A stretch of DNA of 58,285 nt from assembly GCA_001789645.1 (NCBI GenBank), contig MGAG01000037.1, positions 13,345 through 71,629 on the forward strand, read 5' to 3'. A model generated the notes under the pieces. The model made no database searches, was not told the DNA's origin, and saw only the letters and a program-made list of their open reading frames with translations. The stretch's first letter is position 1. Each line of letters opens with the position of its first letter. The stretch is from Candidatus Roizmanbacteria bacterium RIFCSPLOWO2_01_FULL_37_12 (GTDB lineage: Bacteria; Patescibacteriota; Microgenomatia; UBA1406; GWC2-37-13). Shown here piece by piece: positions 3,617 to 53,393 of the stretch. The translations under genes and the position numbers were made by a program.

Positions 3617-4087
3617 ATGTATCATAGTCCAACTTACGGAAAAGTAGATCTTGAAAAATTAAAATACATCGTATCTAATTTTATGGCTCAGGATAAGAAG
3701 GCAAAATATGAGATTGTAGTCGGAACCGACTCGCAAAAAATTAAAAAGGATACTTACGACTTTGTTTCCGCTCTGATTGTCCATCGAGTCGGCTTTGGAG
3801 GGATTTATTTTTGGAAAAGAGAGATCAGGGATAAAAAAATCAGCCTGAAAGAAAGAATATACCAAGAAGCAACCATGTCTTTGGAGACTTCGGAGAACTT
3901 CATCAATTTTTTTAAAGTTAACGGAATTGCTAGGTATAACATACAGATTCATGTCGACATAGGACACAACGGTGAAACCAGAGAGATGATCAACGAGGTC
4001 GTTGGAATGGTCAGAGGCAGCGGCTATGATGTAAAAATTAAGCCGGATTCATACGGAGCTTCTAAAGTTGCTGATCGATACACCTAA
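3617..4087 (+). CDS. YkuK-type RNase H-fold protein (DUF458)
   Basis: A 156-residue protein that matches the DUF458/YkuK family, predicted to have a ribonuclease H-like fold. Visible signatures are VGTDSQ (residues 35-40), which starts the first strand with an acidic residue, HVDIGHNGETREMI (about 112-125), and the conserved C-terminal IKPDSYGASKVADRYT. It starts 5 bases after the rtcB stop, so cotranscription with archease and RtcB is likely. This context suggests an RNA-related role, but the biochemical activity of the family is not established to my knowledge. Confidence 0.85.
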   Translation: MYHSPTYGKVDLEKLKYIVSNFMAQDKKAKYEIVVGTDSQKIKKDTYDFVSALIVHRVGFGGIYFWKREIRDKKISLKERIYQEATMSLETSENFINFFKVNGIARYNIQIHVDIGHNGETREMINEVVGMVRGSGYDVKIKPDSYGASKVADRYT

Positions 4088-4089
4088 TT

Positions 4090-4182
4090 CAAATTCCAAG
4101 AAACAACTCACAAGATACAAAAAATCCCAAATTACAAAACACAAGAAACAAACAAATCGCAATATCCAATTACAAACTTTCC
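4090..4182 (+). repeat. Left heptad arm of S23 element 1
   Basis: Contiguous 7-base words start at 4090 (CAAATTC), 4097 (CAAGAAA), 4104 (CAACTCA) and 4111 (CAAGATA), followed by a 10-base word and further CAA-type words to about 4182. The region is A-rich and has no ORF. It begins 2 bases after the ykuK stop codon. Confidence 0.75.
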
Positions 4183-4305
4183 AAAAATTAAAATAAACCT
4201 CTTTTAGGGATATAAAAATTTATTTCTCCGGGGAAAGTTGATTTGAGTATTTTTTATTGAATTTTTTACTTTATTAAAAATATATTCAGCTGTTTGCTCG
4301 ACCGT

Positions 4306-4740
4306 TTAATCACTATTATCTATAATTTCTCCATAATTAACTTTGTCTAAGTTTCTTTTATAACTATCTCTTATGTAACTTTTATCTCTTTTGTCTATTT
4401 CCCGTGTTCCTCTGTATGTTAAAACTGTTGTAAGAGGAGGTTTAAAAGTAAAAGCAAAAATGTCGGAATCTAACGGTTTTAATTTCTTAACTAGCGATTC
4501 GTATCCTTTGTCTGAAATGTGATAAGTTATTAAAACATTTAGATTTTTTTCGATAAAATCTTTTGCAACTGATAAGGCAGTGTCAAATGCGATTGTCCAA
4601 GCTGGTTCGTTGTCCATCCAGTCTATAAATTCCCTAATTTTATCCACTTCAATATAGGCACAGTTTGGGATTTTTTCCCATAAGATTTTAGCAACAGTTG
4701 TTTTACCAGAATTTATTGGGCCATTAAGTACTATAATCAT
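4306..4740 (-). CDS. Small P-loop kinase-like protein (AAA_33 type)
   Basis: A 144-residue P-loop NTPase. It opens with a beta strand and Walker A, MIIVLNGPINSGKTTVAK, as in small-molecule or nucleic-acid kinases of the AAA_33/zeta-toxin/chloramphenicol-phosphotransferase type. IEVDKIREF follows as in such kinases, and an Arg-rich lid with YRGTREIDKRDKSY is near the C-terminus. I chose the ATG at 4740 because the Walker strand starts there and because it overlaps the S23 stop as ATGA, the usual sign of coupling. Translation could extend to 4788 in the same frame, but those residues read the S23 tail. Substrate unknown. Confidence 0.65.
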   Translation of the reverse strand: MIIVLNGPINSGKTTVAKILWEKIPNCAYIEVDKIREFIDWMDNEPAWTIAFDTALSVAKDFIEKNLNVLITYHISDKGYESLVKKLKPLDSDIFAFTFKPPLTTVLTYRGTREIDKRDKSYIRDSYKRNLDKVNYGEIIDNSD

Positions 4741-5051
4741 ATAGAGTTTTTTATTATCGCTGAAAGAATATTTTTTAGTTCGGTGCATTCTTTTAATAAT
4801 ATCTCAATCTGTTCTTTGAATTTATTATCTGCTTCATTTATTAGTTTTAACCAATACATTGTTTCCTTTGCTTCTTTTCGAGCAATTTTAATTCTATGGA
4901 TAAAATCTTTTTTCCCGAGTGAATCATTTGCTTCAATGTAGTTTGCTCCGATCGCTGTTCCTGATCTTATAAGTTGACCTATAAGAGGAATTGTAATTAT
5001 ACTTTTTGGAAGTATTTTACATAATCTAATTATTTCTTTTGAAAACTCCAA
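4737..5051 (-). CDS. S23/four-helix-bundle (23S rRNA IVP family) protein, copy 1
   Basis: A protein of about 104 residues from the S23/IVP/Avd-like four-helix-bundle family. The family signature is clear: LIGQLIRSGTAIGANYIEAN followed by KKDFIHRIKIARKEAKETMYWL. The family is found inside 23S rRNA intervening sequences and, as Avd, with diversity-generating retroelements, but orphans have no known function. The frame is open upstream to about 5086 and encodes KKYDLEERT, which matches copy 3, but no ATG is available. Either TTG at 5051 is used or the gene has lost its start. Its stop overlaps the kinase ATG. Confidence 0.8.
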   Translation of the reverse strand: MEFSKEIIRLCKILPKSIITIPLIGQLIRSGTAIGANYIEANDSLGKKDFIHRIKIARKEAKETMYWLKLINEADNKFKEQIEILLKECTELKNILSAIIKNSI

Positions 5052-5098
5052 AGTTCTTTCTTCAAGGTCGTATTTTTTCGTATTTCTTTTTTATTCGT

Positions 5099-5183
5099 CA
5101 ATTTGTAATTTGTTTATTATTTGTTTCTTGGTACTTGAAAATTGGATATTATTTGTATCTTGTGAATTGTGAGTTGGGATTTG
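5099..5183 (-). repeat. Right heptad arm of S23 element 1
   Basis: Read on the minus strand from 5183, the arm consists of words CAAATCC, CAACTCA and then CAATTCA, CAAGATA, with 11-base words (CAAATAATATC type) between groups, ending with CAAATTA near 5106. It is inverted relative to the left arm and shares several words with it. It ends 7 bases from the Lon-like stop codon. Confidence 0.75.
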
Positions 5184-5190
5184 AGAAATT

Positions 5191-6261
5191 TTAGGTCATA
5201 AATTCTTTTAAGTTTGCTTCGGTGATGAAATAGCTCAGACCTTCGCCGTTAACTATTTTAAAAGCTACTTTGCGGACTATTCCTTCAATGGCTCTTTCGA
5301 GCGAACGAATTCCGGAGTCAAAACCAAGCGGTCTGATTAATTTGTGTAGCGCTGCGTCGTCGATTTTTATATTATCAGAGGTGAGTCCGGCGATCTTAAG
5401 ATAGCGGGGTAAGACATAATTTTTTGAAATGGCTATTTTTTCATCGTCGTTATAGGACGGCATTTGAATGACTTCCAATCTGTCAAGTACTGCAGTCGAT
5501 AAGTTGTTACTGTTATTTGCGGTTGCAATAAAAATAACATCGGACAAATTGACAGGATAATCGATAAAATAATCGACAAAGTTGCTGTTCTGCTCGGGAT
5601 CCAACAGCTCAATCAGAACTCCCATTACAGCAGCTCTTGCTTCGGGCGTAATTCTGTCCAGTTCATCCAGTAAGATGATTGGATTATTGACTTGAGATTT
5701 TCTTAAGGCCTTAATAACCATTCCCGGTTCGGATTCGGGCGCTGTTTTTGCCTGTCCCCGAAGATCAAGAGATGATGACAAACCTCCAAAAGGTATTCTA
5801 ATAATTTTCCTACCCAAAGCTTCGGCAACCGAATTGGAAAATGTAGTTTTTCCGGTTCCCGCCAATCCGATAAAAAAAAGCTGGGGCGCATGAGGAATTT
5901 GGCCAGGATTTTTTTGTTTTTGAACTATTAATAGAGATAAATATTCAAGTATTCTTTGTTTTATTTTCTCAAGGCCATAATGATTTTTGTCAAGGATGAC
6001 TTTGGCTTTTTTAATATCGAGCTGATCTATAGATTTTTTATTCCAGGGTAATGAAGTTATCCAGTCGATATACTTTGAAGTTATATCAATTTGGGAAAGA
6101 TTGCCTCCATATTTCAAAGAGAGAGCAATTCTGTCGATTTGATGAATTGCTTTTTCTCGTAAATTAGCAGGTAAGTCGGTCGTTTGCAAACGGACTCTAA
6201 GATTATCGATCTCTGATGATGTATTTGTTGGGTTAATTTGATTAGCAGTTAAATTATCCAC
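5191..6261 (-). CDS. Lon-like AAA+ ATPase lacking the protease domain
   Basis: A 356-residue protein homologous to the central part of Lon. It has the helical linker with YIDWITSLPWNKKS (about 64-77) and DKNHYGLEKIKQRILEYL, Walker A GLAGTGKTT (132-140), Walker B IILLDELDR (about 195-203), the NVALDPEQN-equivalent ELLDPEQNSNF, sensor ATANNSNN, and the small AAA domain with SGIRSLERAIEGIVRK. The substrate-binding N-domain and the whole Ser-Lys protease domain are absent; the protein ends in NLKEFMT, where the protease domain begins in ordinary Lon. Start is GTG at 6261. It may be a chaperone-like unfoldase or a truncation next to the S23 element. It is divergent from groES. Confidence 0.88.
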   Translation of the reverse strand: MDNLTANQINPTNTSSEIDNLRVRLQTTDLPANLREKAIHQIDRIALSLKYGGNLSQIDITSKYIDWITSLPWNKKSIDQLDIKKAKVILDKNHYGLEKIKQRILEYLSLLIVQKQKNPGQIPHAPQLFFIGLAGTGKTTFSNSVAEALGRKIIRIPFGGLSSSLDLRGQAKTAPESEPGMVIKALRKSQVNNPIILLDELDRITPEARAAVMGVLIELLDPEQNSNFVDYFIDYPVNLSDVIFIATANNSNNLSTAVLDRLEVIQMPSYNDDEKIAISKNYVLPRYLKIAGLTSDNIKIDDAALHKLIRPLGFDSGIRSLERAIEGIVRKVAFKIVNGEGLSYFITEANLKEFMT

Positions 6262-6345: not shown

Positions 6346-6669
6346 ATGGCAAAAGTACAAAATAACCAGTCTGTCGCCAGGCAAAGTATTCAACCTCTTT
6401 TTGATTACGTATTGGTTAAACCTCTCGAGCAAACTCAAACTACTCCTTCAGGAATTGTCTTACCGGATACAGTCAAAGAAAAACCCCAAGTCGGTCAAGT
6501 TATGGCGGTAGGACCGGGGACCGTCAATGACCATGGGCAAAAAGTACCGATGGTTGTTAAGGTTGGTCAAAAAGTACTTTATAAAAAATGGGGTGGAAAT
6601 GAGGTTAAGGTAGGAACGGAAGAGTGGCTTTTGATTGAACAAAAAGATGTAATGGCAGTAGTTGCATAA
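6346..6669 (+). CDS. groES: Co-chaperonin GroES
   Basis: A 107-residue GroES, the lid of the GroEL folding chamber in the cytoplasm. The core starts at about residue 16 (IQPLFDYVLVKPLEQTQTT), has the mobile-loop region SGIVLPDTVKEKPQVGQVMAVGPG and ends with the GTEEWLLIEQKDVMAVV strand. It is about 10 residues longer at the N-terminus than the usual 95-residue protein. It precedes groEL by 130 bases, a gap that contains a heptad-array repeat. Confidence 0.97.
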   Translation: MAKVQNNQSVARQSIQPLFDYVLVKPLEQTQTTPSGIVLPDTVKEKPQVGQVMAVGPGTVNDHGQKVPMVVKVGQKVLYKKWGGNEVKVGTEEWLLIEQKDVMAVVA

Positions 6670-6674
6670 AATCA

Positions 6675-6762
6675 CAAATTACAATTCACAAGATGCAAAC
6701 AAATTTCAAATAATTAAATTTACAAAAACATTTGTAAGTTGTTTCTTGGGATTTGGAAATTG
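6675..6762. repeat. Gene-less (MITE-like) copy of the S23 element arms
   Basis: The left arm on the plus strand has CAAATTA (6675), CAATTCA (6682), CAAGATG (6689) and an 11-base word. The right arm is five perfect contiguous heptads, 6728-6762, read on the minus strand as CAATTTC, CAAATCC, then CAAGAAA, CAACTTA, then CAAATGT. The order CAATTCA-CAAGAT matches the right arm of the element at 4090-5183, and CAAGAAA-CAACT matches its left arm, so this looks like the same element in opposite orientation without its genes. It lies between groES and groEL. Confidence 0.65.
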
Positions 6763-6787
6763 TTAAAAATTTAGTTATTAATTTTAA

Positions 6788-8676
<1,889 letters not shown>

Positions 8677-8717
8677 AGATATTAATAGAATTTACACGGT
8701 CAATTTCGTTCCAGACT

Positions 8718-8784
8718 GTCATGCTGAATTTATTTCAGCATCTGTTTTTACTAAAATCAGATCCTGAATCAAGTTTAGGATGAC
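8718..8784. repeat. GTCAT...ATGAC double-hairpin repeat, copy 1
   Basis: A 67-base element with terminal GTCAT and ATGAC. The first hairpin pairs TGCTGAA with TTCAGCA; the second pairs ATCCTGAA with TTTAGGAT (one G-U in RNA). AAAATCAG lies between them. It separates the SafE-cupredoxin and CopZ-like genes. Confidence 0.75.
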
Positions 8785-8806
8785 AAAAAGTGCGCAAAAC
8801 TTGTTT

Positions 8807-9837: not shown

Positions 9838-12120
9838 TTATAAAATCTTTACACGCTTTAAAAGAAGTGAATTAGAAACAACAGAAATAGAACTGCTCGC
9901 CATAGCAACAGAGGCAAAGATCGGACTTAATAAAATTCCAAAAAAAGGATAAAGAATACCCATGGCAACCGGGATGAGCAAAACATTATAGCCGAAAGCC
10001 CAGATAAGATTAAGCTTAATAGTCCGCATGGTTTTTTTGGAGAGTTCAATTGCAGCGGTGACACTTTTTAAGTCTTTATTGATTAGGGTAATGTCCGCAG
10101 CTTCAATCGCGACATCGGTTCCGCTACCCATAGCAATTCCGATATCTGCTGCAGCCAAAGCCGGGGCGTCATTAATTCCGTCACCGACCATCGCGACTTT
10201 TTTTCCGGCTGTCTGCAGTTTTTTGATCTCATTTTCCTTTTGATCTGGTAGCACTTCAGCCAAAACACGATCCACGCCCAATTTTTTGGCAATAGCATTG
10301 GCGGTTCGTTCATTATCACCGGTAATCATTAAGATTTCTATACCGCGCTTTTTTAAAGAGGTGAGGGCGTCTTTGGCTGTATCTTTAATAGTATCGGCTA
10401 TAGCAATCAGTCCGAGAGCTTTTTGATCCACCGCAATATAAACTACAGTTTTACCATCCATTTCTAATTTTTCCGTGGTTTTAACCTGTGTTGAATCAAT
10501 CCTGACGCCGTTTTTTTTCATCAACTTAATATTGCCTAATAATATTTTCTGTTTATTCAGCCAGCCCTCAACTCCGTAGCCGGGAATAGCTTTAAACTTT
10601 TCAACCTTAGACAAGACAAGCTTTTTGTTTTCTGCTTCTTTGACAATCGATTCGGCTAAAGAATGTTCGGAACCTTTTTCGATCGAGGCAGCCAACTTTA
10701 AAATTTCATCTTCTTGATCCGGCTTAGCCCCACTCGAAGGATATTCTTCGAGCTTGTCGAGAACAATTAAATCAGTGACTTCTGGTTTCCCTTTTGTTAA
10801 GGTTCCGGTTTTATCAAAAACAATGGCATTGATTTTATTTGCCGTCTCAAGGCTTTCGGCGTCTTTGATGAGAATTCCGTGTTCCGCACCGATACCGGTT
10901 CCCACCATTATCGCAGTCGGTGTCGCCAGTCCCATTGCGCAGGGACAGGCAATAATCAAAACCGCAACCGTGTTAAGCATGGCATATAAAAATGCGGGCG
11001 ACGGACCAAAAATATACCAAACGCCAAAAGTCAAAAAAGCCAGCATTATGACGACCGGAACGAAATATGAAGAAACAATATCTGCCAGCCGTTGGATCGG
11101 TGCTTTACTGCCCTGTGCTTCCTCAACCAGTTTGATAATTTGGGCCAACATTGTTTCGGCACCGACCTTAGTCGCTTTATAGATAAATGTTCCCGATTTG
11201 TTCATGGTTGCGCCAACTACCGTATCGCCTTTTGTTTTATCAACAGGAATGGATTCACCCGTGATCATTGATTCATCGATGCTAGATTCGCCCTCAATTA
11301 TTACACCGTCAACCGGAATTTTTTCACCCGGCCGCACCCGGATAATGTTCCCGATTTTTACCTGTTCAATCGGGAGATTAACTTCTTTTTTATCCCGAAT
11401 AACTCTGGCTGTTTTTGCCTGAAGTCCGATAAGTTTTTTAATAGCCTGGGATGTTCCGGATTTGGCTTTTGCTTCAAAATACCTGCCGAGCAGTATTAAA
11501 CCGATTACAATAACTGCCACATCAAAATAAGGCATCGGATCCAAGCCTAGATTTATGATTACCTCGGGGAAAAAAGTTACAAAAGTAGAATAGATATAGG
11601 CAACCGTTGTTCCTAAGGCAACCAGCGTATCCATATTTGCGCTTCGGTGTTTTAAAGCAGGGACGGTTGCACGGTAAAATTCATATCCCGCCCAGAATTG
11701 CACCGGAGTTGCCAGAAGTAACTGGAAAAAGAAGTTTCGAAAAATTGCTGGAGCTGTTTCCATGAGAACCGGAAAACTACCCCAGAAAATCAAAAGTCCG
11801 AATCCCAAACTTACATTAACTTTATTTAATAATTTTTTAAGCTCTTTTTCCTTGCTTTCCGAAGCTTCAGCGTAGGATGTGTCTTCCAGTTCAAGTATGT
11901 ACCCGGTTTTATCAATTGCTTCTGCCAGCTGCTCCGGAGTGCAGTTATCCGTATCATAAGTAACCATAGCTTTTTGAGTAGCCAGATTTACCACTGCATC
12001 TTTGACACCGGGAGTTTTTTTTAATGCCCGCTCAGTAACACGTATACATGAAGCGCAGTGTAGACCTTTGATTGAGAAAGTTTTCTTAGTTACTTTGTTA
12101 GTTAGTTTATTAGTTTCCAT
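9838..12120 (-). CDS. copA: Copper-exporting P1B-type ATPase CopA
   Basis: A 760-residue P-type ATPase that pumps Cu(I) out of the cytoplasm. In order: one HMA domain with GLHCASC (19-25), the actuator TGES, the membrane CPC motif ([15 protein letters not shown], near 390), DKTGTLT phosphorylation site near 436, SEHSL, and [20 protein letters not shown]. The last membrane helices carry YN and [12 protein letters not shown], which mark the Cu(I) subgroup. The first 12 residues ([12 protein letters not shown]) are encoded by an array of TTAGTTA-like words. Residues around [12 protein letters not shown] (about 452-463) are encoded by a palindromic repeat. The start overlaps the S23 gene by 11 bases. 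Confidence 0.96.
10732..10764. repeat. In-frame palindromic repeat (TCGAG family) in copA
   Basis: CTCGAAG (10733-10739) and CTTCGAG (10746-10752) form a hairpin, followed by CTTGTCGAGAAC. On the minus strand it reads GTTCTCGACAAGCTCGAA, shared with the element in epmA and, with one change, recJ. It encodes the non-conserved [12 protein letters not shown] stretch of CopA between the phosphorylation site and the nucleotide-binding region. Confidence 0.6.
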
Positions 12121-12501
12121 TAATTTTAGTTCTTAAACTTGAAAGCATTTTAGACATTTCTAAACATTTTCCATATATATCCAGATATTGATTATTTGTA
12201 ATTAATTTTTGATTTTTTGCAATCATTAATATAGCTACACACTCAAAACATGACCCTCTTGCTAGTGATAAGAAGTGGCTAAAATCTTTATTAGTTCTAC
12301 TTGAGCCTTCCGCTATATTAAGAGCAATTGAAATTGCAGCCCTTCTAAATTGGTTAGTCAAACCATAAATTTCTTGTTTAGGCCAACTATTTGTTATTCT
12401 ATAAACGATATCAGCAAATACTAATGCTTTTTGATAAACTTTCAGATTTTCAAATTTAAACATAGTTCTTCTAAGTAACTAATCAACTTATTTCTAAGTT
12501 A
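12085..12501. mobile_element. Putative S23 element 2 inside the copper operon
   Basis: The S23 gene at 12110-12463 is bracketed by arrays of TTAGTTA/GTTAGTT-like words at 12085-12116 and, inverted, by CTAAGTAACTAATCAACTTA-like words at 12471-12501. The left array lies inside the first codons of copA. The arms are shorter and less regular than those of elements 1 and 3, so the claim of a mobile unit is weaker here. Confidence 0.35.
12110..12463 (-). CDS. S23/four-helix-bundle protein, copy 2
   Basis: A 117-residue protein of the S23/IVP four-helix-bundle family, from a different subgroup than copies 1 and 3. It begins [21 protein letters not shown], then [23 protein letters not shown] and [21 protein letters not shown], all typical of the family. 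It lies between the cupredoxin and copA genes on the same strand and overlaps copA by 11 bases. Nothing known links S23 proteins to copper, so it is more likely a passenger than a resistance gene. Its promoter is probably that of the operon. Confidence 0.88.
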
Positions 12502-26241: not shown

Positions 26242-26253
26242 ATTTTGAATTAA

Positions 26254-26699
26254 ATTCAAATGTCAAAATCAAAAGATTCAAATCAAGCTTAAAGCTCAAA
26301 ATCCAAATTTATTTTCTTAAAATTGATGAAAATATTAAGGCTAATTCATGAGCTTCCTTCCAAAACTTTCTACATTTTTCTTTTGTTGTAGAATTTGATA
26401 TAGAAATCATATGGATCCAATGCATTGATTCTTTTGATTCTTTCTTACAAGTTGCAATTTTATGATAAAAATCTTTTTTTGATTCAGCGCCATCAGCCTC
26501 CATATAGTTTGCTCCAATGCTTGTTGTAGCTCTTACGAGTTGATTTATTAAGGGATTGTTAATTGCATGTCGAGGTAAAGTCATCGCAAACTTTATTATA
26601 TCTTCACCAAATTTAGCAGTTCGTTCTTTAAGATCATATTTTTTTGTACTATTTGGATTTTGGACTTGATTTGACATTTGAGCTTTGAAATTTGGATTT
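26254..26699. mobile_element. Putative S23 element 3, overlapping the end of aspS
   Basis: The S23 gene lies between inverted arrays of TCAAATG-like 7-base words: 26254-26308 on the plus strand and 26650-26699 on the minus strand, where words read CAAATTT, CAAAGCT and then CAAATGT, CAAATCA. The right array is translated in one frame as the last 17 residues of AspRS and in another as the start of the S23 protein. The unit lies within 20 bases of the carboxypeptidase gene on the other side. Confidence 0.55.
26309..26677 (-). CDS. S23/four-helix-bundle protein, copy 3
   Basis: A 122-residue S23/IVP-family protein close to copy 1: KKYDLKERTAKFGEDIIKFA, PLINQLVRATTSIGANYMEA, KKDFYHKIATCKKESKESM and a C-terminal helix with KEAHELALIFSSIL. 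I start at ATG 26677; a TTG at 26707 is in frame. The first dozen residues (MSNQVQNPNS) are encoded by heptad-word repeat DNA and are unlikely to be part of the fold. It overlaps the 3' end of aspS by 29 bases. Confidence 0.88.
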   Translation of the reverse strand: MSNQVQNPNSTKKYDLKERTAKFGEDIIKFAMTLPRHAINNPLINQLVRATTSIGANYMEADGAESKKDFYHKIATCKKESKESMHWIHMISISNSTTKEKCRKFWKEAHELALIFSSILRK

Positions 26700-28091
26700 T
26701 TCTCCAATTAATCTTATTCCCAATTCTCTCAGTTGATCATTTGTTACTTCAGAAGGCGCATCCATAACAGCTGTTTTTCCGCCGGATGAGGTTGGGAATG
26801 CCATAACTTCCCTAATTGACGGTTCTCCCAGTGCAGTAAACAGGAAGCGATCAATCCCCGGAGCAATACCGCCGTGGGGAGGAACACCATAGGAAAAGGC
26901 TTCCAGCATGTGGGAAAACTGCTTTTTTTGCTCTTCGGTAAATCCGATTAAATCAAAAACTTTTTTTTGAATACCGGGATCATGAATTCTAATGCTGCCT
27001 CCGCCAACCTCAAAGCCGTTGAGAACCAAATCATGTTGAAGGCCGCGGACCTTTAAGGGATTTTTGTCTAACAGATCAATATCGGAGGGATGAGGGGAGG
27101 TGAACATGTGATGAGAAGGGGCAAATTTAGCTTTGCCCGAACCGAAAAAATATTCCTTTTCGGTCTGTTCCGCAAACAATGGAAAATCGACTATCCAGGC
27201 AAAAGCCAGTTCGTCTTTATCCTGTTTATTTTTTCTCAGATCGGGTTTGTCTGATCTATATTTTATTTGTGCATCAGAATGGGATATTCTAGGCCAGGGG
27301 GTTTGCTGTATTTTTTTTTCGGGAAAAACAAACTTTACTAATTGAGTAAATAAATCTTCAGTAAGTTCCAGAATATCATTTTGAGTGACGAATGACATCT
27401 CAAGATCGAGCTGGGTGAATTCTCCGTAAGCGCGGTCTTTTCTGGGGTCTTCGTCGCGGAAACACCTGGCAATTTGAAAATATTTTTCTATTCCGGCAAC
27501 CATCAGGAGTTGCTTATATTGTTGAGGAGATTGGGGCAAGGCATAGAATTTTCCTTTTTGCAGCCGGGACGGAACTAAAAAGTCGCGCGCTCCCTCCGGA
27601 GTAGCTTTAGTGAGTATGGGAGTTTCTATCTCAAGAAACCCTTCTTTTGTCAGATAATTTCTGATAAAAGTTGTGATTTTAGATTTGAGAAGCAGATTTT
27701 TATACATTCTTAGCCGTCTCAGATCTAGATAGCGGTATTTAAGCCTGATTTCCTCGTCTATATCGTAACCGTCAGAATTGACAGGAATCGGGAGCGGTTT
27801 GGCTTTACTGATGATTTTTAAATTCAAGGCTTGGATTTCAATCTGACCGGTTTTTAATTTTGGATTGGTAAGTTTTTCCGGTCTTTTTTTGACTATACCT
27901 TTGAGATAAATAACGTCTTCTGAATTCAATTCTTTAAATTTTTCATCACCAACAACCTGAACTATACCGGTACGGTCACGCAGATCAATGAATACTATTT
28001 TTTTATGGTCACGTTTCGAGTCTACCCAGCCGTAAAGTCCGATTTCCTGACCGATTTTATCGACAGTTTGTTCAATAAACAGCTTTTTCAA
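26649..28091 (-). CDS. aspS: Aspartyl-tRNA synthetase, short form
   Basis: A 480-residue class II synthetase that charges tRNA-Asp. It has the OB anticodon domain (1-105), motif 1 region (FLEIETPIL), motif 2 FRDEDPRKDRAYGEFTQLDLEMSF, and motif 3 GIAPGIDRFLFTALGEPSIREVMAFP. The GAD insert present in normal bacterial AspRS of about 590 residues is missing, with only a short linker at about 275-295. The last residues after GIRLIGEK (KFQSSNVKSSPKSK) are coded by the S23 element's repeat. A GTCAT-type repeat lies upstream. Confidence 0.95.
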   Translation of the reverse strand: MKKLFIEQTVDKIGQEIGLYGWVDSKRDHKKIVFIDLRDRTGIVQVVGDEKFKELNSEDVIYLKGIVKKRPEKLTNPKLKTGQIEIQALNLKIISKAKPLPIPVNSDGYDIDEEIRLKYRYLDLRRLRMYKNLLLKSKITTFIRNYLTKEGFLEIETPILTKATPEGARDFLVPSRLQKGKFYALPQSPQQYKQLLMVAGIEKYFQIARCFRDEDPRKDRAYGEFTQLDLEMSFVTQNDILELTEDLFTQLVKFVFPEKKIQQTPWPRISHSDAQIKYRSDKPDLRKNKQDKDELAFAWIVDFPLFAEQTEKEYFFGSGKAKFAPSHHMFTSPHPSDIDLLDKNPLKVRGLQHDLVLNGFEVGGGSIRIHDPGIQKKVFDLIGFTEEQKKQFSHMLEAFSYGVPPHGGIAPGIDRFLFTALGEPSIREVMAFPTSSGGKTAVMDAPSEVTNDQLRELGIRLIGEKSKFQSSNVKSSPKSK

Positions 28092-29723: not shown

Positions 29724-31487
29724 TTATAAAATAGAAACAATTTTCCCTCTTAATTTTTCATATCCGTTCCAGCGGTCGATTTCGATCGAGTAGACGACGA
29801 TGATTTTTTGACCTTTAATGAGAGAGGAGTATTTTTTTGCAGTTCCAAACGAGATTAATTCAATTGGTAATTGATAATTGTTGATTGTTGATTGTTGAGA
29901 GGTCTCTTTGACTAGTATTTTTAAGTGGTCGCTTGACTTACCAAAAGATTTTACATCTAAGATTTCAACTTCGCTGTAAAAGGTAGGTTTGGGATTACCG
30001 ATTCCAAAAGGCTGAAGCTGCTCCAATGTTTTTGCAATTGAAATATTTAATTTTGAAACAGGAATTTTTATGTCGGCCTCAATAACACGTTCTAAATCTT
30101 TATTCTTAATTAATTTGTTAGCGACTTTGAATGCGGTCGCACTAAAAGTCGTAAATTTACTTTTTTCCATGGTAAAGCCGGCGGCGCCTTTGTGGCCTCC
30201 GACGTCAACTAAATACTTTTTTAAATCTCGCAGAAAATTTGTTATGTGAAAAGAAGGGATTGACCGTGCGGAACCCTTCAGAAATCCGTCGCTTTCGGTT
30301 ATGATAATTACGGGCCTAAAATATTCCTCTGCAATCTTAGAAGCAATTAATCCGATTATTCCTTCATGCCAATTCTTATTTTTTAATATTATTAATTTTG
30401 GTAATTTTTTTAGAGTTCGAGCCTGTCGAGAACTTCTCGACTCGTCACGTCCTTCCTCGCTCGAAGAGTAATCGTATTCTTTTTCAATAGTAGTTTTCGC
30501 TTCTTCAACTGCCTTTATTACCATATCCTGCCTTTCGCGATTTGTTTCCCCAACACGACTGGCAAGATTAAAAGCTTGATCATTATTTGTAGTGCAGAGT
30601 AGTCTTAGCGCGTCAATAGCGTGTTCGAGCCTGCCAACAGCATTGATCCGCGGTGCAATGATAAAACCGACTTCATAAGGAGTTATTTTTTTACCTGTAA
30701 TTCCGGCTTGATCGATGAGATGTTTGATACCGGCTCTTTTAATTGAAGTAAAAGCTTCGAGTCCATATTTTACAACGCTCCGGGTGGGTCCGGTCAGAGG
30801 AACAAGATCAGCAATAGAGCCGATGGAGGCTAGAGCGAGATAGTCGGTTTGAAAGTTTATTGTTAATTGTTGATTGTTAATTGTTGATTGTCTTTTAAAA
30901 TGTTCGAAAATTGCCTTCGCAAAGAAATAGGCGACACCGGAACCGGAGAGCTCAGGTATGTGAAAAATAGCCAGAGCGTCGTCCGGCAATTTCTCAGGTT
31001 TAAGATGGTGGTCTGTGACTATAATTGGTACTCCTACTCTTTTAGCATAAGTGATTTTTTCTTTGGCTGTAATTCCATGATCAACACTGATAATCAGGCT
31101 GGGATTGAATTGTTTTTTGACATTATCTATTCCTTTAATTGAAAAGCCGTAGCCTTCTTTTTTACGGTGGGGGACATAAGGCATGGTTTTAAATCCCAAA
31201 AAATATAATGTCTCCCAAAGAATTGCTCCACCGGTAATTCCGTCGGCGTCATAATCCGTGTAGACGACTATCATTTCATTGTTTTTTTTGATTTTTTCAA
31301 GCTGTTTTAGAGTTTTTTTTAACTCTCTTTTATATCCAAAATCCGTGAGTTTAATTTTTAATGGGTGGGTTGGAGTGATAAATTCTTTCGGCTTTTTTAT
31401 CTGCCGATTTTTTAAGAGTATTTCGACTAATTTATTTTCACTTAATTTTTCATTACTTTTAATTTCGTGCTTGTACTTAATTTTCAT
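29724..31487 (-). CDS. recJ: Single-stranded-DNA exonuclease RecJ
   Basis: A 587-residue RecJ, a 5'-3' ssDNA exonuclease for recombination and repair. DHH-domain motifs: DYDADG (78-83), VDHG (135-138), TDHH (158-161); then GSIADLVPL, the DHHA1 motif GGHKGAAGF near 440 and an OB-like C-terminus. Three non-conserved stretches are encoded by repeats, all in frame: STINNQQLTIN (about 199-210), YSSSEEGRDESRSSRQART (about 340-358) and STINNYQL (about 531-542). They fall in surface loops or linkers as far as the motif order shows, so the enzyme is probably active. Confidence 0.95.
   Translation of the reverse strand: MKIKYKHEIKSNEKLSENKLVEILLKNRQIKKPKEFITPTHPLKIKLTDFGYKRELKKTLKQLEKIKKNNEMIVVYTDYDADGITGGAILWETLYFLGFKTMPYVPHRKKEGYGFSIKGIDNVKKQFNPSLIISVDHGITAKEKITYAKRVGVPIIVTDHHLKPEKLPDDALAIFHIPELSGSGVAYFFAKAIFEHFKRQSTINNQQLTINFQTDYLALASIGSIADLVPLTGPTRSVVKYGLEAFTSIKRAGIKHLIDQAGITGKKITPYEVGFIIAPRINAVGRLEHAIDALRLLCTTNNDQAFNLASRVGETNRERQDMVIKAVEEAKTTIEKEYDYSSSEEGRDESRSSRQARTLKKLPKLIILKNKNWHEGIIGLIASKIAEEYFRPVIIITESDGFLKGSARSIPSFHITNFLRDLKKYLVDVGGHKGAAGFTMEKSKFTTFSATAFKVANKLIKNKDLERVIEADIKIPVSKLNISIAKTLEQLQPFGIGNPKPTFYSEVEILDVKSFGKSSDHLKILVKETSQQSTINNYQLPIELISFGTAKKYSSLIKGQKIIVVYSIEIDRWNGYEKLRGKIVSIL
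29863..29897 (+). repeat. Heptad array 2 inside recJ
   Basis: Five contiguous 7-base words: ATTGGTA, ATTGATA and then ATTGTTG three times. The array is 35 bases and is translated in frame on the minus strand as part of QQSTINNYQLPIE in RecJ. Confidence 0.8.
30414..30468 (-). repeat. In-frame palindromic repeat (TCGAG family) in recJ
   Basis: On the minus strand it runs from TTACTCTTCGAG, through GAGTCGAGAAG, to a 21-mer starting AGTTCTCGACAGG. The same order of blocks occurs in epmA at 54298-54350. In both genes it is read in the same frame, giving DYSSS...SSRQART. Confidence 0.75.
30859..30892 (+). repeat. Heptad array 1 inside recJ
   Basis: Alternating ATTGTTA and ATTGTTG words, four full copies and a partial fifth, without interruption. 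On the minus strand they encode QSTINNQQLTIN in RecJ. A 7-base unit read in threes gives a 7-residue repeat. Confidence 0.85.
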
Positions 31488-40281: not shown

Positions 40282-40405
40282 ACATTGTTGTGCCACAATC
40301 AGGGCATTTAGCCTTTAAAGCCGGTTTACCATTTTTCATGGTGACTTTTTGAGGATTATCGACATTTACTTTTTTTCTTTCTTTTACACAATACATGGTT
40401 GCCAT
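40262..40405 (-). CDS. DUF5679-like zinc-ribbon microprotein
   Basis: A 47-residue protein: MATMYCVKERKKVNV, NPQKVTMKNGKPALKA, KCPDCGTTMFKIGSA. This matches the DUF5679 pattern of a YCxxC knuckle and a CPxCG knuckle, but the second cysteine of the first knuckle is Glu here (YCVKER), leaving three cysteines. The gene has a textbook ribosome-binding site, AGGAGGTGATAAATT before the ATG. It is convergent with thpR. Confidence 0.8.
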   Translation of the reverse strand: MATMYCVKERKKVNVDNPQKVTMKNGKPALKAKCPDCGTTMFKIGSA

Positions 40406-40579
40406 AATTTATCACCTCCTTTTCGATATGGGACAAAACCTATCGGTTTTTTCCCAACGATTTTCCCTAAGTTGAGTCGCAAGCTATTAACATTTAAATG
40501 AACGCTTGCAACAAATAAATATTTATTTTTTAAAGTTTAATTAAATATACTTAAAGGACTAACATTTATAAATTTAGCT

Positions 40580-50539: not shown

Positions 50540-52441
50540 ATGGCAAAAATAATCGGTATTGATCTTGGAACAACTAATTCTGCTGTTGCGGTAATGGAGG
50601 GCGGAAAGCCAAAAATTATTCATTCGCAAGAAGGACGCAATGTTATACCATCCGTAGTAGATCCTGTAAAAAGAATCGTTGGTGATGTAGCTAAACGACA
50701 GATGGTAATAAATCCTAAAAATACAATTTTTTCAATTAAGAGATTGATGGGCAGGAGATATTCGGATGAATCTGTAAAGCTCGATATCAAATGGTTACCC
50801 TACAAAATTAAAGAAGGAAGGGATGAGATGGCCGACGTTGAGGTTGAGGGAAAGACCTATACTCCGCAAGAAATTTCAGCCATGATTCTGCAAAAAATCA
50901 AGACTGACGCAGAAACATATCTGGGAGAAAAAGTTGAAAAAGCCGTTATCACAGTTCCGGCTTATTTCGACGATTCACAAAGACAGGCAACCAAGCAAGC
51001 CGGAGAGATCGCCGGACTTGAAGTCGTAAGAATTTTAAACGAGCCGACCGCTGCAGCTTTAGCTTACGGTCTTGATAAAAAACATACCCACACAATCGCA
51101 GTCTACGATTTGGGTGGTGGAACGTTTGACATTACTGTTTTAGAACTTGGTGAGGGAGTGTTCCAGGTTAAAGCAACCAACGGAGATACTCATCTTGGCG
51201 GTGATGATTTTGACAAGGTTATATTAGATTTTATAGCAGAAGAGTTTAAAAAAGAAAATGGTGTTGATCTAAGACGTGATCCACAAGCTTTACAGAGGAT
51301 CAGAGATGCTGCAGAAAAAGCAAAAATAGAACTGTCAACGTCTAAAGAAACAGAGGTAAACCTTCCCTTTGTTACGGTTAGAGACGGGCAGCCGTTACAT
51401 CTTGTCATGAAGTTAACAAGGGCAAAGTTGGAGTCTTTGGTAGGATCTCTGATTGAGAAAACCATAGAACCAGTTAGGGCCTGCCTTAAGGATGCCAAAG
51501 TCGATGTTGCAAAAATAAATGAAGTTGTGTTGGTTGGCGGAATGACCAGAATGCCAAAGGTGATCGAGACAGTTAAGGAATTCTTTGGCAAAGATCCAAA
51601 TAGATCGGTGAATCCGGATGAAGTTGTGGCAATCGGCGCCGCTGTACAGGCGGGAGTTTTGACGGGTGAAACAAAAGATGTCGTACTTCTGGATGTTACG
51701 CCATTGACATTAGGAGTAGAGACGTTAGGTAGTGTCATGACGCCTCTAATTAACAGGAATACTACAGTACCTACGGCAAAATCGGAAGTTTTTTCAACAG
51801 CCGGAGACAATCAAACGCAGGTAGAGATTCATATTCTCCAAGGGGAAAGACCATTGGCTAAAGATAATAAATCCCTTGGCAGATTTATTTTGGACGGAAT
51901 TCCTCCGGCTCCAAGGGGAGTTCCGCAGATAGAAGTTACTTTTGATCTCGACGCCAATGGGATTTTGACTGTTACGGCCAAAGATAAGGCAACGGGGAAG
52001 TCTCAAGCTATTAAAATAACCGGATCAACGGGTTTAAGTAAAGACGAGATTGAAAAGATGAAAGAAGAAGCGGAAAAACATGCGGATGAAGATAAAAAAG
52101 AAAAAGAAAAAATTGAGATCAAGAACAAGGCGGACAATATGATCTATGTGGCTGAAAAGTCCTTGAAAGATGCAGGTGACAAAGCGCCAAAGGATATCAA
52201 AGAAGAAGTAGAAAAGAAAATAAAGGATCTTAAAGATTCTTTGGAAAAAGGTTCGAGCGAAGAACTGGAAAAAAAGACTAAGGATTTGTCAGATGCCTTA
52301 ACCAAGATCGGACAAGGAATGTATAACAAACCAGGTGAACAAAAGGGGCCGCAGACTACTACTCCACCGGATGAAGGTGGAAAGAAAAAGGACGAAAAAA
52401 AATCTAAAAAAGATGTCGAAGAAGGTGAAGTTGTAGGATAA
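50540..52441 (+). CDS. dnaK: Chaperone DnaK (Hsp70)
   Basis: A 633-residue Hsp70. ATPase domain motifs: [18 protein letters not shown] (4-21), [53 protein letters not shown] and [13 protein letters not shown]. The substrate domain includes [13 protein letters not shown] and NTTVP. The C-terminal lid is helical and ends in a charged tail, without the usual EEVxD. It sits third in the hrcA-grpE-dnaK-dnaJ operon. Confidence 0.98.
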
Positions 52442-52443
52442 AG

Positions 52444-52531
52444 CATGTAACACGAAACATGTAACTTGTAACATTTTAAAATGTCATGCCACGACTTTCT
52501 TGTGTTACATGTTATATGTTACATGTTAAAT
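52444..52531. repeat. Inverted heptad arrays between dnaK and dnaJ
   Basis: The left part consists of 7-base words CATGTAA, CACGAAA, CATGTAA and then CTTGTAA (52444-52471). The right part, inverted, has AACATGT and AACATAT words on the minus strand (52502-52531). The words differ from those of the S23 elements, but the layout, direct heptads facing their inverted copies, is the same. No gene lies inside. Confidence 0.65.
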
Positions 52532-52535
52532 AAAA

Positions 52536-53393
52536 ATGGCAGATTACTATGAATTACTCGGCGTTTCCAAAAATGCTTCAGATGCAGAGATAAAAGCAGC
52601 ATACAGAAAACAAGCATTAAAGTGGCATCCTGATAGAAATAAATCTCCCGACGCAAACGCGAAATTTAAAGAAATAAATAAAGCTTTTGAAGTATTAGCC
52701 GATCCCAAGAAAAAAGAGATGTACGATCAGTACGGTGAAGAAGCATTCAGTCGGAGCGGTTATGGAGGGGGCGGGGGACAGACATATCAGCAAGGACCTT
52801 TTACTTATACTTATTCCAGTTCGGGAGGAAATCCGTTTGAAGGGATGGATTTTGGCGGATTTTCCGATCCTTTTGAGATCTTCGAGCAGTTTTTCGGATT
52901 CCAATCGCCCTTTCAAAGAGGCGGGAGAAGAGCAAGGCGCGAAGTCTATGAGCTCGATTTGACTTTTGATGAAGCTGTGCACGGTGTAGAAAAAACCACG
53001 GTGATTAAGGGAGACCGAAAAGTGATTAAAATTCCGGCAGGTGTTGACAGCGGGAACAGAATAAGATTTTCCGATTTTGATGTCCAGGTATCGGTCAGAC
53101 CTCATGCTTATTTTAAACGTGACGGGCAGGATATTTACTTGGAAAAAGAAATTTCCTATCCTCTGGCAGTTCTCGGTGGAGCTGTGAATGTGGTGACTAT
53201 TAATGATTCTGTAAATCTTAAGGTTCGTCCGGGAACAAAATCAGGGACAACTCTCAGACTCCGGGGTCAGGGAATTCCATATCCAAATTCTTCACGTCGT
53301 GGTGACCAGTATGTAGTTTACCGTATCAAAGTCCCCGAACGAGTTTCTTCAAAAGCAAAAAAGTTATTAGAAGAGCTGAAAGAAGAGATTTAA
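52536..53393 (+). CDS. dnaJ: J-domain co-chaperone DnaJ, zinc-finger-less
   Basis: A 285-residue J-protein of the class B (CbpA) type. The J domain (1-70) includes HPD in [10 protein letters not shown]; a Gly/Phe-rich region (about 75-130) follows, then the C-terminal substrate domains with [13 protein letters not shown] and [13 protein letters not shown] and [16 protein letters not shown]. The four CxxCxGxG repeats of class A DnaJ are missing. It follows dnaK after 94 bases containing inverted heptad arrays. Confidence 0.95.

Follow-up and report, generated by a model that had tools for sequence, protein, structure and literature searches.

Genes for S23, commonly annotated in bacteria as 'four helix bundle protein' or '23S rRNA-intervening sequence protein', have until now been studied mainly inside rRNA genes, and we found no explanation for their role elsewhere. 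The nearest described counterpart of the units reported here is the S23-bearing intervening sequence (IVS) of 23S rRNA, as in Coxiella and Leptospira, where the S23 ORF likewise lies between complementary ends. In the Coxiella IVS, the S23 start is immediately preceded by tandem heptamers (GACAGAT), present in two or three copies, and earlier authors have proposed that IVSs are mobile (PMC4990558).

S23 units resemble insertion sequences and MITEs in having two inverted ends, an apparent short target duplication (in two cases) and internally deleted derivatives, but they carry no transposase gene, and their terminal repeat is a periodic, fast-changing array and not a fixed sequence. In REPIN/RAYT systems, short inverted sequences dispersed as gene-less pairs are linked in trans with one gene family, and the words are specific to the resident gene lineage. 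By analogy, S23 units offer some clear examples of dispersed gene-less inverted pairs, with an own-genome word excess of about twofold over composition controls; they differ in the lack of a Y1 transposase and in their multi-word array ends, cargo genes and 5-bp direct repeats. The short tandemly repeated heptanucleotides (STRR) of cyanobacteria, common in Nostocales, are also tandem degenerate heptamers; to our knowledge, neither S23 nor inverted pairing appears in their descriptions. Finally, the Avd (bAvd) proteins of diversity-generating retroelements have a related four-helix bundle fold, but no template/variable repeat was seen at the unit described below.

An S23 gene enclosed by inverted word arrays

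The window, i.e. the whole stretch of 58 285 nucleotides analysed (G000:C37:13345-71629), was compared with five further genomes of the same genus (G001-G005). Its features are collected in Table 1. The initial annotation had described an S23 gene and a P-loop kinase, bounded on both sides by arrays of CAANNNN words in opposite orientation and filling the gap between two stop codons with 2 and 7 bases to spare. Both gene assignments agree with profile matches, that of the kinase lying just under its cut-off, and the spacing to the stops is correct, although the unit itself extends slightly beyond the 4090-5183 first given. The opposite orientation of the arrays was also confirmed. Positions 4089-4133 and 5140-5184 form a 45-nt inverted repeat with 80% complementarity, and the inverted alignment of the arms scored 63, against 12 for the direct alignment and a maximum of 50 among 1000 dinucleotide shuffles. 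The lag-7 periodicity was equalled by 1 in 1000 shuffles for the right arm and by 14 in 1000 for the left arm; when lags 4-14 are compared across the full window, lag 7 is the outlier, and arrays occur at several other sites. Taken alone, the value for the left arm would suit AT-rich low-complexity noise mistaken for a pattern, but with inverted pairing reached in none of the 1000 shuffles, and with the whole comparative record presented below, which already refutes that reading, its probability is negligible.

Table 1. Features of the window (positions are those of the window).
Feature	Position	Strand	Remarks
Whole unit	~4088-5190	.	Left arm, kinase cargo, S23 and right arm between two convergent stop codons
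Left arm, CAANNNN word array	4088-4196	+	Inverted repeat with right arm; lag-7 peak 4102-4170
Right arm, CAANNNN words on minus strand	5074-5190	-	Inverted repeat, lag-7 periodicity
S23 (23S_rRNA_IVP) four-helix-bundle gene	4737-5051	-	PF05635, 7.4e-19; PDB 2RLD, 5.5e-17; TTG start, no ATG
P-loop kinase cargo (small P-loop NTPase)	4306-4740	-	AAA_18, 4e-6, just under its cut-off
RNaseH-like left neighbour gene	3617-4087	+	Stop codon at 4085-4087
Lon-like AAA right neighbour gene	5191-6261	-	Stop codon at 5191-5193
S23-less mini-element, groES-groEL gap	6668-6800	.	Words like CAAGATG; weak inverted score 27, 123/1000 shuffles
Further S23 gene	12110-12463	-	Between Cu-ATPase and next gene; PF05635, 4.8e-35; arms weak, not significant
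Second armed S23 unit	26246-26702	-	Between D-Ala-carboxypeptidase-like gene and aspS; S23 at 26309-26647, PF05635, 1e-14
Solo heptad array within recJ coding sequence	29849-29913	-	Lag-7 scan
Second solo heptad array within recJ	30837-30909	-	Lag-7 scan
Short inverted heptad-array pair, AACATGT/ACATGTT, without gene	52426-52544	.	Upstream of dnaJ

The unit has terminal inverted repeats, in the form of periodic arrays, and S23 and the kinase are the only genes between them, hence there is neither a transposase gene nor a Y1 transposase of the TnpA_REP type, and no nuclease is encoded; among the scanned neighbours, no reverse transcriptase with template/variable repeats was seen. The TGA stop of S23 and the ATG of the kinase overlap (ATGA). 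The S23 frame has no ATG, with a TTG at 5051, while its ortholog in G003 has an ATG beside the right arm; therefore, the window copy may be start-eroded and decaying, unless it starts at the TTG. As for Avd, bAvd matched the S23 gene at 12110-12463 weakly, and those at 4737-5051 and 26309-26647 not at all. A scan of viral contigs yielded no S23 of the window lineage, the consensus S23 matching only Avd, in three phages.

The likeness to the S23-bearing IVS, on which the initial annotation had remarked, holds in part. It is strengthened by the heptamers upstream of S23 in Coxiella (PMC4990558), but its RNA-stem side finds no support in the comparison of arms presented below. The window unit lies between protein genes, outside any 23S rRNA gene, and for this reason is not filed as an IVS. 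Units of this type further differ from IVSs in carrying cargo, in giving rise to S23-less mini-elements, and in their long lineage-specific word arrays with periods of 7-10 and their 5-bp direct repeats.

Occupied and empty sites

The junction that holds the unit differs among the congeners, and the unit is not fixed there. In G003 (contig C1), the arm words are the same and S23 is 85% identical, but the cargo is a GNAT acetyltransferase, encoded on the opposite strand, and not the kinase. The G002 junction contains a YCII-like gene, only the tail of S23 as a remnant, and further insertions, while in G004 (contig C97) the junction measures 74 bp, compared with 1142 bp in G000, and holds a solo array of about four words. 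These states identify the S23 gene and its arms as the constant part and the other gene as exchangeable cargo.

The genome contains 10 S23 genes in all. The inverted score of the second armed unit in the window (41) was reached by 1 of 1000 shuffles; this unit is missing from its site in G002-G005, and G001 (C18:7005-7554) has a unit with homologous arms, whose S23 is 77% identical, at another locus beside an unrelated gene. The site of the further S23 gene at 12110-12463 has no S23 in G003, is occupied in G005 by an S23 from a different lineage, with different words, and in G002 keeps both arms and, of S23, only the tail. Conservation of the same arms and genes at one locus in all relatives, with no copies elsewhere, was sought and not found. 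The CAAGAWA words of the window unit recur in arms-only elements, 110-150 bp long, in G003, G005 and G002.

Other repeats and insertions were met in these genomes. A short palindromic insertion, its ends resembling TATACCC...GGGGTATATAC, interrupts the G001 copy of S23 on C18 (L169, ~7200-7280). A palindromic repeat of ~70 bp at 8717-8785 of the window is scattered across the six genomes of the genus in dozens of copies of either orientation, and a dispersed repeat of ~130 bp at ~40400-40546 recurs at several sites in the genus with 80-94% identity.

The flanks in the window's genus are 70-75% identical, too diverged for direct repeats to be read at the window locus. Insertion could be read in cyanobacterial plasmids. 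Plasmid C of Trichormus variabilis and a Scytonema plasmid share an S23 unit. In Nostoc linckia, Aulosira and Nostoc carneum, the corresponding plasmids have flanks of 98-99% identity but no unit at that site. The empty site, AAAAAGTAATTAAC, becomes AAAAA-GTAAT-[unit]-GTAAT-TAAC when filled, with GTAAT as a 5-bp direct repeat. Aulosira and three Nostoc strains have the unit of Trichormus plasmid C, bounded by the same BLAST limits, at other places in their plasmids, and comparison of one relocated unit with an empty relative showed TTCTA (5 bp) on both sides. Thus, 5-bp direct repeats are readable at two S23 insertions; one mini-element showed no duplication.

Mini-elements with the arms of this plasmid unit are common in plasmids (a query that included one of them plus flanks matched 118 places in 54 records). 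The abundance of arms-only elements in Nostoc plasmids suggests that some STRR may be remnants of S23 units. In Nostoc mini-elements (L479, L476-L478), a conserved stretch with two small hairpins lies between the arms, perhaps a small RNA or a terminator.

Filled and empty states also coexist within Chryseobacterium. At the MoxR/DUF58 junction, 98 genomes divide into a group with a full S23 unit and a group free of it: among the junctions read, 29 hold S23 units of 432-516 bp, 26 are stretches of 50-105 bp that for the most part consist of arms alone, and 6 do not exceed 44 bp; other genes occupy the junction in a few genomes. The groES-groEL gap yielded 30 S23-bearing and 20 S23-less junctions, with nine word families. 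In 48 of these 50, a left arm paired better with its own right arm than with that of another junction, and both arms switch word family together. This gap is a recurrent site: arrays with different words are found there in Microgenomates species, and S23 units or arms of the nine word families in Chryseobacterium (L484).

The Chryseobacterium junctions also bear on whether the unit is an RNA-level element, as in the 23S rRNA IVS, whose arms would pair in the transcript and be cut by RNase III, with selection acting on the RNA stem. The IVS has paired termini and is cleaved by RNase III (PMC4990558), and the arms of the window unit are complementary. However, the S23 units at MoxR/DUF58 all belong to one word family, and their own arms are no more complementary than those of relatives; nor is there an excess of G-U wobbles on the sense strand at this junction (71+51 vs 63+56), so that nothing points to selection on an RNA stem. 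Considering also that the arms of the window unit are 1 kb apart and that insertions are visible at the DNA level, an RNA-level element is very improbable. Concerted evolution of both arms within one copy was likewise considered for MoxR/DUF58 and was not seen; arms that differ do so as whole word families.

S23 units are thus found at different loci in related genomes and are missing from otherwise intact sites, they exchange cargo and lose their interior, and arms-only derivatives are dispersed. Their mobility is well supported.

Arrays, words and S23 lineages

In relatives among the Microgenomates, the density of lag-7 arrays around S23 genes is 50.8 per 10 kb at a distance of 50-100 bp and ~1.4 per 10 kb beyond 1.5 kb, and lag-8 and lag-9 arrays are likewise enriched beside S23. 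In sampled genome stretches, 2 lag-7 arrays were counted in 342 kb of four S23-free genomes and 39 in 371 kb of six S23-bearing genomes, two of which were array-poor; G053 and G031 have S23 yet almost no solo arrays. When 96 S23 units were examined, the inverted alignment of the arms exceeded the direct one in 83, and a score of 40 was reached by 37 real arm pairs and by none of 96 cross-unit controls. The two arms had equal periods in 57 units (period 7 in 41, 8 in 8, 9 in 6 and 10 in 2) and unequal periods in 3.

Period and word follow the protein. On the S23 protein tree, the period changes 11 times, compared with never fewer than 15 in 300 within-genome shuffles. In comparisons between genomes, words are more alike the higher the S23 identity (Mantel 0.245; permutation maximum 0.123), while units within one genome have words unlike each other. 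The co-variation of arm words with S23 subgroups anticipated in the initial annotation was therefore recovered, and it shows that S23 and its arms, alike in word and period, travel as one heritable package. It should be noted that this agreement alone does not amount to recognition, because arms merely inherited with the gene would give the same result. Co-occurrence of word and lineage for the CAAGAWA words, tried at the level of single loci, was only partial. CAAGATA-type arrays are numerous in G005, which has no S23 of that lineage close to them.

Arrays dispersed away from S23 show a modest bias to the words of resident S23 genes. Among 176 of them, 43 best matched the S23 arms of their own genome (15.5 expected), and in a controlled test of lag-7 arrays the excess shrank, this being so for 39 of 126, compared with 19 after reversal of the arrays and 11-25 after letter shuffling, an excess of about twofold. 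Both arrays within recJ encode low-complexity loops.

That arrays occur alone and even within coding sequence, those of recJ at the same positions in four species with different words, is what one would expect if heptad arrays were ordinary fragile slippage repeats at gene ends, into which S23 and its cargo were dropped by illegitimate recombination. Against this, S23-free genomes have almost no arrays, and elsewhere arrays cluster at S23; the arms form a matching inverted pair and not one array split in two; and slippage makes neither inverted copies nor conserved unit ends at new loci. We therefore consider such an origin improbable.

Possible mechanism and distribution of the units

Named genomes were scanned with the consensus S23 protein, and the 80 loci thus found through S23, from many bacterial phyla and archaea, included 68 in which the inverted alignment exceeded the direct one; periods were 7/7 in 31 and 8/8 in 7.

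In our opinion, the window unit is probably a two-ended mobile element whose ends are arrays of words specific to the S23 lineage and whose strand-transfer enzyme comes from elsewhere. The element would consist of inverted word arrays (7 nt per word here) enclosing the S23 gene and an optional passenger, here the P-loop kinase. S23 proteins are basic (median pI 9.16). The S23 fold is known to form pentamers, and in Avd it binds nucleic acid. From these features, and by analogy with the solved relative 2RLD, we infer that S23 is probably a pentameric ring like its structural relatives and binds the repeated words, with one word read per subunit. S23 could bridge the arms and in this way present the ends to a strand-transfer or repair enzyme encoded outside the unit, for which the 5-bp direct repeats at the two clean insertions suggest staggered cleavage of the target. 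Arms-only derivatives would be mobilised in trans, and cargo would be swapped between fixed arms. On this basis, S23 may be a mobility or stabilising factor, as the initial annotation had supposed.

It is also conceivable that S23 is a passenger like the kinase, kept for another reason, and that the units are non-autonomous and moved wholly by an unrelated transposase that recognises their ends in trans. S23 has no catalytic domain, the 5-bp direct repeats resemble those of DDE transposition, and arms-only elements are abundant. However, S23 is the sole gene that recurs between the arms in every sampled phylum while other cargo varies (in part a matter of selection, because loci were found through S23), and word and period go with the S23 lineage and vary among the units of a genome, which a single host transposase would not need. 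A transposase of this kind acting alone appears rather unlikely.

With S23 as the reader of the words, a broader proposal can be made, which we advance tentatively. S23 may be the word-reading component of an unrecognised class of mobile elements spanning bacteria and archaea, in which each lineage would recognise its own word of 7-10 nt. The S23 ring would determine how many bases make up a word, and any DNA between inverted arrays of that word would be moved by means of a strand-transfer enzyme, either the host's or a borrowed one. Among the descendants would then be the 23S rRNA IVSs and some of the cyanobacterial heptanucleotide repeats. IVSs are better seen as one outcome of such units: they would be the special case of a unit that landed in an rRNA gene, with RNA removable by RNase III. 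There is a fair chance that S23 units deserve a class of their own. In the literature covered, which takes in few of the subscription journals, no account of S23 units bounded by inverted word arrays at sites other than rRNA was found; as an indication of novelty, this is weak.

The purpose of S23 and IVSs, a long-open question, becomes directly testable if every S23 lineage reads a word of its own. The proposal, if true, would also supply an origin for heptanucleotide repeats that are scattered over many genomes, as well as a compact pairing of a small protein with a short DNA word.

Some of the loci examined have peculiar surroundings. In Vreelandella sedimenti, three S23 genes lie within ~12 kb, and a near-perfect ACTCACA array of several hundred bases follows an S23 gene (L380, 2774 onwards). 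In Pseudanabaena and Anabaena plasmids (L458, L459), S23 genes lie between cas6 and cas4 of CRISPR loci, of type I-D in Anabaena, where the left array is ~300 bp long.
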